From positions 1 to 33,591 of the forward strand of contig JAEEWC010000035.1 of assembly GCA_016287155.1 (NCBI GenBank): a DNA stretch of 33,591 nucleotides. The letters run 5' to 3'. Positions 30,165-32,876 of this stretch are shown piece after piece (within the stretch, counting starts at the first letter, position 1; the number at the start of each line of letters is the position of its first letter). The translations under genes and the position numbers were made by a program. The notes under the pieces are model-generated. The model did no database searches. It was not told the origin of the DNA and saw nothing but the letters and a program-made list of their open reading frames with translations. This stretch comes from Clostridia bacterium. Lineage in GTDB: Bacteria; Bacillota; Clostridia; Christensenellales; UBA3700.

Positions 30165-30425
30165 TTAGTTTATAAACTTTTTATAACCTTCGCCCATTTT
30201 CAAGCTTTTAGACACTCTAGATAACGTCTGATTGGCGATTCCTGTCTTTTCTTGAATCTGAACGTAAGTGTTTCCTTCTTTTAAAAGCTTTGCAGCTTCG
30301 ACTCTTTGAGATAAGTTTTCAAGCTCTTTATATGTCAACAAATCTTCAAAGAAGATTTTGCAATCTTCTTTTGATTGAAGCTTTAAGATAATATCGTACA
30401 ATTCTTCAATTGATTCGTTAGACAT
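30165..30425 (-). CDS. yerC: YerC/YecD family TrpR-like DNA-binding protein
   Basis: An 86-residue TrpR-superfamily protein. The helix-turn-helix is seen as LSQRVEAAKLLKEGNTYVQI followed by QEKTGIANQTLSRVSKSL. TrpR itself is a tryptophan-bound repressor; the ligand of YerC is not known. It overlaps the end of the ABC transporter ATPase gene by eight bases (ATGTCTAA), so it is made together with the transporter. That placement suggests it controls, or senses the cargo of, the amino-acid transporter (inference). A terminator follows. Confidence 0.92.
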   Translation of the reverse strand: MSNESIEELYDIILKLQSKEDCKIFFEDLLTYKELENLSQRVEAAKLLKEGNTYVQIQEKTGIANQTLSRVSKSLKMGEGYKKFIN

Positions 30426-31329
30426 TTGGTTCGTCCTTTATTACGTCTTGAACATCATCAAAAGTATTATTCTCTTTGCTCTTTTGTAAGAAAGCAATAG
30501 TCTTATCTGACTTTGGATGATCAAATACTTGTCTTGGTGTTCCCATTTCTTCTACTATACCATTTGCCATGAAAATAACTTTATCTGATACTTTCTTAGC
30601 AAATTCCATTTCGTGTGTAACGATAATCATAGTAGAACGTGTTGTTTCTTTTAATTCTTTAATAACTTTTAATACTTCACCTGTTAATTCAGGATCTAGA
30701 GCTGATGTTGGTTCATCGAAACAAAGAATGTTTGGACGCATTGCAAGCGCTCTTGCAATGGCAACTCTTTGACATTGCCCACCAGATAATTGACATGGAT
30801 AATTGTTCATTTTATCTTGAAGTCCAACTCTAATTAAAAGTTCCTTTGCACGCTCTTTATTTTCATCAAATAAATACTTCTCGTATTTACGTGTCTCTTT
30901 TAGTACGTATTTTATGCGCTTAAACAAAGGCATATCCATTGCTGCGATTTTAATTTCTTTCTTCTTTGCTTTAACTAAGCTTGCTGCCATTTGATTTGGC
31001 GCTAACATTACATTCTCTAGTGCTGTATATTGTGGGAATAGATTGAATTGTTGGAATACCATACCAAAGTTCAATCTTCTTGTTCTAATTTCTTGGGCTG
31101 TCTCATTTTTGAATTCTTTTGCATCAAAAATTACATCACCATTCAAAATGATTCTTCCTTCATCTGCAGTTTCTAGGTAATTTATACATCTAAGCAAAGT
31201 AGTTTTGCCAGATCCAGATGAACCAATAATAGATAATACTTCGCCTTGATTGATATCAAAATCAATGCCCTTTAATACTTCAGTATTACCAAATGATTTT
31301 CTAATTCCTCTAACTTCTAAAAATGCCAT
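30418..31329 (-). CDS. Amino-acid ABC transporter ATP-binding protein with an extra insertion
   Basis: Powers amino-acid import. The 303-residue ATPase has Walker A GSSGSGKTT (37-45), Q-loop VFQQFNLFPQ, signature LSGGQCQRVAIARAL (181-195, with Cys where Gln is common), Walker B ILCFDEPTSALDPEL and the switch HEME. Between LENVMLAPNQ and AKELLIRVGL lie about 45 extra residues (about 115-160), including KAKKKEIKIAAMDMP and LFKRIKYVLKETRKYEKYL, basic and likely helical. Usual GlnQ-type proteins have about 240 residues and lack it. It falls in the helical subdomain that faces the permease. It overlaps yerC, and the permease lies seven bases upstream. Confidence 0.93.
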   Translation of the reverse strand: MAFLEVRGIRKSFGNTEVLKGIDFDINQGEVLSIIGSSGSGKTTLLRCINYLETADEGRIILNGDVIFDAKEFKNETAQEIRTRRLNFGMVFQQFNLFPQYTALENVMLAPNQMAASLVKAKKKEIKIAAMDMPLFKRIKYVLKETRKYEKYLFDENKERAKELLIRVGLQDKMNNYPCQLSGGQCQRVAIARALAMRPNILCFDEPTSALDPELTGEVLKVIKELKETTRSTMIIVTHEMEFAKKVSDKVIFMANGIVEEMGTPRQVFDHPKSDKTIAFLQKSKENNTFDDVQDVIKDEPNV

Positions 31330-31336
31330 ACTTCAC

Positions 31337-31990
31337 CTACACTCTAAAATAACTCAATCTCTTCTCTAAATATCCGAATAATAGAGTTAAAATACCTACG
31401 AATATTAAGTAGAATAAACCTGTGAAGAATAGTGGCCAGATAATAGCATATGTAGCAGTGATTTCTTGGGCTGCTTTTATAATTTCGGCAACCATAATAA
31501 CTCTAGCTAAAGCTGTATCTTTAACTAATGTTGTAATTTCATTACTCATTGGAGGAACTATTCTCTTTATAACTTGCTTCAAAATAATTTTGAAGAATAC
31601 TTGCGCTTTTGTCATTCCAAGTACTTGTCCAGCCTCATATTGGCCACGAGAGATACTCTCGATTCCTGCTCTGAAGATTTCACTAAAGTAACAAGCATAA
31701 TTAATTACGAACGCAATAACAACCGCTGTTAATCTAGATCTCATAGGTGTATCGAAAATTAAACCTGGAACATAGAATACGACAATTACTTGTAGCATTA
31801 GAGGTACACCTCTAATAATCCAAATAAATATCTTAGTAAATATCTTTAATGGCTTAAACTTACTCATTGATCCAAATGAAATCAATAGACCAAGAGGTAA
31901 AGCCATAACTAAAGTTAGCGCGAACAATAAACATGTCGTGCCAAATCCTGATAATAATTTTAATAGTACTTCTGTAAAAGTTATAGTCAT
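31337..31990 (-). CDS. Amino-acid ABC transporter permease (HisM/GlnP family)
   Basis: Membrane channel subunit of the amino-acid importer, 217 residues with about five helices. The start is MTITFTEVLLKLLSGFGTTC; next come IIRGVPLMLQVIVVFY and the EAA loop FRAGIESISRGQYEAGQVLG, through which it contacts the ATPase. One permease gene is present, so a homodimer is expected. The ATG follows a hairpin that lies between this gene and the binding protein, and no Shine-Dalgarno is visible between hairpin and start. Confidence 0.94.
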   Translation of the reverse strand: MTITFTEVLLKLLSGFGTTCLLFALTLVMALPLGLLISFGSMSKFKPLKIFTKIFIWIIRGVPLMLQVIVVFYVPGLIFDTPMRSRLTAVVIAFVINYACYFSEIFRAGIESISRGQYEAGQVLGMTKAQVFFKIILKQVIKRIVPPMSNEITTLVKDTALARVIMVAEIIKAAQEITATYAIIWPLFFTGLFYLIFVGILTLLFGYLEKRLSYFRV

Positions 31991-32039: not shown

Positions 32040-32876
32040 TTATTTTGTTTGTTCCATTACTGTTGAACCAGCTTTAACAATAGCTACTTGCTTATTCTTT
32101 AAATATGAAGCAGACATACTCATTTCTTCAGCTCTTGCTGCTGTATATGTCATACCATTCCAAATAGCATCAATGCTTTTCCCGTCTAATTCTAATACTT
32201 TAGAATCCCAGTCAATTTCTTGGAACTTAGCTGTAACACCTAGCTTTTCGCAAACTGCCTTAGCAACATCTGTGTCGAAACCAACTAATTCATCATTTCC
32301 ATTCTTGTATGAGATAGGAGCGAAAATTGTGTAACCAACAATAAATTCACCCTTTCCAATAATGTAGTTATAACCAGTTTTATCTAATGTTTCATCAACT
32401 GATGGTTCTTCAAATGTAACTAATGCGTCTGTTAAACCATATACAGCTGCGATTTCAGCGATCTTGCCTTCTTCTTGTAAATCATATAAAGCCTTGTTGA
32501 TCTTTTGTGTAAGATATACATCTTCTTTTCTTAAACCTACTGCATATGTTTCTTCTTCTGCTTCAATATCTACGATTTCAAGCTTTCCGTTGAAAGAAGA
32601 ACCTGGTGTATTGATATAATAATTAGCCATGATTGAGTCAATAATACCAATATCTGCTGTTTGCGCTAAAATTTCTGTTAAAACGTCCTTTTGAGATAAA
32701 GCAGATACATAATTTCCTAATTTTCCTAAATCGTCAGCATATTTTTGTGCGACTTCTTCACCAGCTGAACCAGCTTCAGCCATGATTGTAACAGTTGGTA
32801 AGTTACAAGCAACAGCTCCAACCACCATAACAATAAGAATTGCTACTGTTAAAATTGTTAAAATAATTTTCTTCAT
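32040..32876 (-). CDS. Amino-acid substrate-binding lipoprotein with circularly permuted SBP_bac_3 fold
   Basis: From the ATG at 32876 (AAGGAG seven bases upstream) it has 278 residues, starting with a lipoprotein signal (AVAC, Cys24). The order of the two lobes is reversed compared with GlnH-type proteins. Residues 28-149 look like lobe II: AGSAGEEVAQKYADDLGK, TEILAQTADIGIIDS (ligand Asp80), YAVGLRKEDVYL, INKALYDLQEEGKIAEIAAV. Residues 177-268 look like the N-terminal lobe I: EFIVGYTIFAPISYKNGN, LVGFDTDVAKAVCEKLGV, IDAIWNGMTYTAARAEEM (ligand Arg248), KQVAIVK. The linker 150-176 joins the old C- to the old N-terminus. Both halves are in one frame and the length is full. First gene of the ABC operon. 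Confidence 0.88.
   Translation of the reverse strand: MKKIILTILTVAILIVMVVGAVACNLPTVTIMAEAGSAGEEVAQKYADDLGKLGNYVSALSQKDVLTEILAQTADIGIIDSIMANYYINTPGSSFNGKLEIVDIEAEEETYAVGLRKEDVYLTQKINKALYDLQEEGKIAEIAAVYGLTDALVTFEEPSVDETLDKTGYNYIIGKGEFIVGYTIFAPISYKNGNDELVGFDTDVAKAVCEKLGVTAKFQEIDWDSKVLELDGKSIDAIWNGMTYTAARAEEMSMSASYLKNKQVAIVKAGSTVMEQTK

Follow-up and report, generated by a model that had tools for sequence, protein, structure and literature searches.

Circular permutation of an SBP_bac_3 lipoprotein and repeated changes of segment order among its relatives in Clostridia

Introduction

In the window, by which we mean the whole analysed stretch of 33,591 nucleotides of a Clostridia bacterium, one gene encodes an SBP_bac_3 lipoprotein in circularly permuted order. 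This order is confirmed, and in the lineage of Clostridia concerned the order has changed repeatedly between native and permuted, at four loops. Based on the evidence given below, it is highly probable that the protein is a working lipid-anchored binding protein for polar amino acids, which was permuted by tandem duplication, fusion and trimming, with this process having been repeated at the four loops in the lineage; no binding or transport data are available, and all named permuted loci come from metagenome-derived or uncultured assemblies.

In most descriptions, natural circular permutations are rare and ancient, each being a single event between distant relatives. Here, one family contains many independent permutations, native and permuted versions stand with closely related permeases, and precursor stages are visible, so that the origin of a permutation, the tolerated cuts, the continuity of the hinge and the position of the anchor in ABC import become directly testable. 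Moreover, since annotation by profile sees only part of such proteins, others may have been overlooked.

Results

Segment order of the window protein

The features of the gene and its operon are collected in Table 1. Along the chain, the signal peptide with Cys24 is followed by lobe II, the C-terminal part of lobe I, the linker and the N-terminal part of lobe I, which is not the canonical SBP_bac_3 order of lobe I, lobe II and lobe I C-terminus; the native C-terminus is represented by the segment of about residues 102-149. Cys24 is invariant in the alignment of 39 permuted relatives.

Table 1. Positions in the window of the permuted gene, its parts and its operon partners
Feature	Position	Strand	Remarks
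Circularly permuted SBP_bac_3 lipoprotein gene	32040..32876	(-)	278 aa; ATG at 32876, stop 32040-32042; type C cut
Signal peptide and lipobox, residues 1-24, lipid-anchor Cys24	32805..32876	(-)	from sequence; lobe II starts within a few residues
Lobe II segment, about residues 27-101	32574..32798	(-)	mid-chain in native proteins
Ligand Asp80 codon	32637-32639	(-)	in lobe II segment
Second lobe crossing and lobe I C-terminal helices, about residues 102-149	32430..32573	(-)	lobe assignment is an inference
Linker, about residues 150-176	32349..32429	(-)	from comparison with native relatives L011, L015 and L020; pLDDT 96-98 in the AlphaFold2 model
N-terminal part of lobe I, residues 177-270	32067..32348	(-)	now C-terminal; ends at hinge strand
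Ligand Arg248 codon	32133-32135	(-)	in lobe I N-terminal part
Cognate polar-amino-acid ABC permease (BPD_transp_1)	31337..31990	(-)	adjacent in relatives
Cognate ABC ATPase	30418..31329	(-)	insert between Q-loop and signature motif
YerC/TrpR-like regulator gene	30165..30425	(-)	operon end; often conserved with operon

The initial annotation had claimed that the two lobe segments are reversed, and two kinds of comparison bear this out. In the phmmer search against the PDB, residues 178-273 match positions 20-116 of the 4ohn chain (i-E 1e-18) while residues 63-146 match positions 162-243 of the same chain (i-E 4e-8). The same reversed order is obtained on 3hv1 and AncQR with the second stretch scoring weaker, this stretch being significant on 4ohn and 3hv1 and weak on other PDB chains. 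The other comparison used a doubled profile, that is, the native-order alignment written twice (2 x 238 columns, 476 in all), which crosses the window protein in one stretch, from column 116 to column 347. Such a single run is the signature of circular permutation, and with 232 of the 476 columns it amounts to the equivalent of a single domain, not to two complete ones. No residual overlap of the two ends of note was seen in the permuted proteins in the doubled-profile alignment. Pfam SBP_bac_3 (PF00497) gives 97.1 bits against a cut-off of 26.4 and covers only residues 185-272. Irrespective of the order, membership in the family is supported by the score, by both lobe segments, by the two-lobed alpha/beta fold and by the ligand Arg and Asp. 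The E-values exclude a chance resemblance, as do two orthologs, 73% and 49% identical, that share the order.

The claim that the first half (residues 28-149) represents lobe II stands only in part. Residues 63-146 fall inside SBP_bac_3, and the objection that the first half might lie outside the family is thus removed; about residues 102-149, by contrast, are inferred from the elements of the AlphaFold2 model and the known domain layout of the family to belong to lobe I. The two ligand residues were rightly said to be kept, Asp80 and Arg248 both being present. The proposed linker does join the old ends, as it consists of the native C-tail (YGLTDAL) and the native mature N-terminus (GYNYIIGKGEF), with the correction that it is not a floppy segment but a confidently modelled one (Table 1).

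It is also conceivable that an assembly or binning error swapped the halves of a normal gene, given that the draft genome of the window consists of 179 contigs and is 83% complete. The same order is nevertheless present in G002 (73% identical) and G004 (49%), which were recovered in public contigs of separate projects (SVHF01000023 and DFIJ01000062), and dozens of independent genomes contain the other cut types, in part on contigs of >300 kb. Moreover, the reading frame continues through the linkers and signal peptides, and selection acts on the gene. With congeneric genomes from independent assemblies sharing the order, we reject an artefact, whose probability we regard as negligible, and the swap by sequencing or assembly that had been named as a possible refutation did not materialise.

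Predicted structure

With the alignment of 39 collinear permuted proteins as the input, AlphaFold2 predicts one confident structure for the window protein (pLDDT 93.4, pTM 0.84, no segment below 50), in which the two halves complement each other to complete the lobes, contrary to what would have refuted the permutation. Pieces of the model superpose on T. maritima ArgBP and related ArgBP- and GlnBP-type structures over about 82-84 columns at 1.1-1.2 Å, with 30-35% identity. Another permuted SBP_bac_3 lipoprotein, with the type E cut defined below, is encoded in the genome of the window by a paralogous operon (L037, G000 contig C81:4608-5489), and for this paralog the pLDDT is 93.7 and 182 columns superpose at 2.3 Å. 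Note that Foldseek keeps the sequence order, and thus the superpositions cover the largest collinear pieces and are not a permutation-aware comparison of the whole chain. The whole-chain Foldseek matches (OpuAC, EgtUC and ATP-phosphoribosyltransferases, TM 0.4-0.5) are not taken as relatives and probably arise from the pseudo-symmetry of the lobes.

In this class of binding proteins the lobes are known to be joined by a two-strand hinge. The last long strand (residues 259-268) and the first strand (residues 29-34) of the model are consecutive in the native protein, from which we infer that both chain ends would lie at the hinge. With the ends located there, one of the two hinge strands would be cut, so that a single covalent strand would connect the lobes at the hinge where the native protein has two, and the lipid anchor would sit on lobe II, as inferred from the elements of the model together with the known hinge. 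The breakpoint itself falls at the crossing between the lobes, as had been claimed, both in the doubled profile and in the model.

Cut types among the relatives

Related proteins were taken from the family, order, class and phylum and from named contigs, and were classified by the doubled profile. The main set comprises 241 distinct proteins, 107 native and 134 permuted. The permuted ones are cut in the turn following the first strand (type B, 24 of the 241), at the first hinge crossing (type C, that of the window, 43), after the first helix of lobe II (type D, 43) or before the second hinge strand (type E, 24). It is noted that permuted queries were used to collect the sample, and the proportions are thus not prevalence. 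Within each type the start and end columns mostly agree to a few residues, forming tight clusters at four loops, all of which fall outside the helices and strands of the AlphaFold2 model of the window protein. A permuted protein is present at the main operon in about 30 of 46 genomes of the family (our own count, a few of them assigned by match order alone).

Several unusual arrangements were also observed. At L282:2725-4335 one frame of 537 aa encodes a type C permuted binding protein and its ABC permease as a fusion; at L206:2742-5753 three type D permuted genes are adjacent, of which two have diverged strongly and may have changed in function; and at L251:4824-7386, in a MAG labelled Spirochaetales, three native SBP genes are adjacent.

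Number of origins

For the tree of origins all sequences were rotated back to the native order, and a careful tree of 81 representatives was built. It requires 12 changes between native and permuted, at least 11 of which are forced by well-supported branches, and 20 changes when the cut types are counted; these counts do not separate gains from reversions to the native order. In the AU test, placing all permuted rows in one clade is rejected (p 7e-8), and so are a single clade of type C (p 1e-4), a single clade of type E (p 3e-7) and one origin within the main paralog group alone (p 6e-5). For the permease tree, on which the rotation has no influence, 23 changes between native and permuted are required.

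G001 (L044) and G003 (L070), which belong to the same genus as the window, have operons of other lineages, with native-order SBPs, between the same neighbours at the HemW-MMPL locus; this suggests that operons are replaced at a fixed site. A permutation in place at the window's own locus within the genus is not claimed; the SBP and permease trees put G001 and G003 in other operon lineages.

Operon and function

The SBP-permease-ATPase-YerC operon, which the initial annotation had described as intact, is so in the window, and its order recurs in the relatives. With the SBP adjoining a matching permease and ATPase (30418-31990), it qualifies as a PAAT ABC importer operon. All NCBIfam equivalog models score below their cut-offs, so that no substrate is assigned. 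The function of the window protein and any benefit of the moved lipid anchor are inferred, without binding or transport data.

That the gene is decaying or non-functional, the permutation merely being tolerated before loss, we consider very improbable. It could be upheld only by the absence of expression or binding data, while the comparison with the ortholog at 73% identity gives dN 0.17 and dS 0.72, i.e., dN/dS 0.24, and the predicted fold is of high confidence. The ligand residues are conserved too, with Asp in its column at 95-100% throughout the permuted classes and Arg in its column at 67-93%, versus 74% for Arg in the native proteins; and the placement before the permease is conserved, with a permease ORF lying no more than 600 bases downstream in 222 of the 241 relatives.

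Two further observations concern individual relatives. The ligand Arg is lost in several permuted and native proteins (L005, L008, L081 and others), e.g., in TLTDEVMNGM, and the loss of this carboxylate-binding residue suggests, from the sequences, that they may have changed ligands. Lysine-rich inserts whose length varies greatly are present in the cognate ABC ATPases (window 30418-31329, L066:4825-6453, L068:487-2130, L072:5530-7119 and L053:5585-6877), located between Walker A and the Q-loop, where some exceed 200 aa, and between the Q-loop and the signature motif.

Discussion

Proposed pathway of the permutation

The best-supported route is duplication, in-frame fusion and trimming at both ends, which for the window protein itself is inferred. 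In this route, the SBP gene would first be duplicated in tandem and the two copies would then be fused in frame. The first copy would subsequently lose its 5' part and the second its 3' part, leaving the signal peptide before lobe II, while the two-lobed clamp and the ligand site would stay standard after the permutation. If two copies are fused head to tail, a linker made of the native C-tail followed by the native N-terminus is to be expected, and the linkers of the permuted proteins are indeed composed of the native C-tail (YGLxxxL) and then the native mature N-terminus (SDWxYI..G). Stages of the kind required still exist: in L291 two native SBP genes, 50% identical, lie a few bases apart with a stop between them, and L280:2680-4263 encodes an in-frame lipoprotein of 528 aa with two full SBP_bac_3 domains, 79% identical, before the permease and ATPase. 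In L251, L205, L210 and L206, several SBP genes stand side by side, be they native, permuted or a mixture of both. It is noted that the tandem pair and the fused dimer belong to distant relatives, outside the direct line of the window protein.

Alternatively, the swapped parts could have come from two different genes by domain shuffling with convergence, rather than from one gene rotated onto itself. The two parts do differ in conservation, e.g., with 52% versus 38% identity to the native L011, but stronger conservation of lobe I is the general rule. The native relatives matched by the two parts are the same and belong to one subfamily, the junction sets the native C-tail and the native N-terminus back to back, and a fused self-tandem exists in a relative (L280). 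We thus hold shuffling to be improbable here and prefer the rotation of one gene by duplication, fusion and trimming.

Possible selection on the anchor position

A question of another kind is whether selection, and not only frequent tandem duplication, explains the number of permutations, with the anchor moved to lobe II or to other loops improving the docking or lowering the strain. The cuts recur at only four loops, the events are many and separate, and the distance from the anchor to the fold is short in the permuted forms (medians of 2-5.5 residues versus 7 in the native ones); in Tp0684, which is also a tethered lipoprotein, an adaptation of the anchoring was suggested by its authors (PMC4990184). 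However, the permeases served by native and by permuted versions are closely related, the restriction to four loops may reflect no more than the tolerance of cuts there, and switches back to the native order are not excluded. This adaptive explanation is possible but rather unlikely. Equally tentative is the wider proposal that in animal-gut Clostridia a recurrent SBP permutation, with a dozen or more independent events at four loops and with tandem and fused stages extant, has the anchor position under selection that tunes the contact with the permease.

Comparison with known systems

The canonical SBP_bac_3 proteins (GlnH, ArtJ, HisJ, 4ohn and TmArgBP) have homologous parts, the ligand Arg and Asp, two lobes and a permease with an ATPase in common with the window protein. 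They differ in having the native segment order with the termini on lobe I, whereas in the window protein the termini are predicted at the hinge and the anchor on lobe II.

It is known from engineered periplasmic binding proteins that such folds tolerate new termini. The laboratory-permuted or split proteins, such as the halves of ribose-binding protein and the biosensors, are engineered, whereas the window protein is natural.

In the tandem SBP_bac_3 proteins, GlnPQ SBD1-SBD2 (PDB 6h30) and BvgS (PDB 4q0c), the permuted profile runs across the junction of the two domains, which thus presents an arrangement that can yield a permuted protein by cutting; GlnPQ and BvgS keep two complete domains, while the window protein has one. 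Among the best 60 listed PDB matches of each of two permuted profiles, only these two span the junction and there is no solved structure of a permuted SBP_bac_3 protein.

The initial annotation knew of no described example of the arrangement. This holds for SBP_bac_3, for which no report of a natural permuted protein was found in the open-licence PMC papers searched, but does not hold for ABC binding proteins as a whole, since Treponema pallidum has a natural permuted one of a different fold class, Tp0684 (TpMglB-2), for which glucose binding and closure were shown (PMC4990184). Tp0684 and its relatives ("Type Ic / Cluster Bc") are the closest described case, being likewise naturally permuted, lipid-tethered and located beside transporter genes, and for their own protein the authors considered domain shuffling between two genes (PMC4990184). 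Tp0684 has the Type I (Cluster B) sugar-binding fold, one permuted topology and a permuted part little similar to native sequences. By contrast, the proteins studied here have the Type II SBP_bac_3 fold, with all parts clearly homologous, cuts at four different sites and numerous origins; the window protein in particular shows no Type I fold or MglB homology, its sequence and fold matches being SBP_bac_3 and other Type II folds. With a natural permuted ABC binding protein already known, the new element is that the permutation is repeated and takes place at multiple sites.
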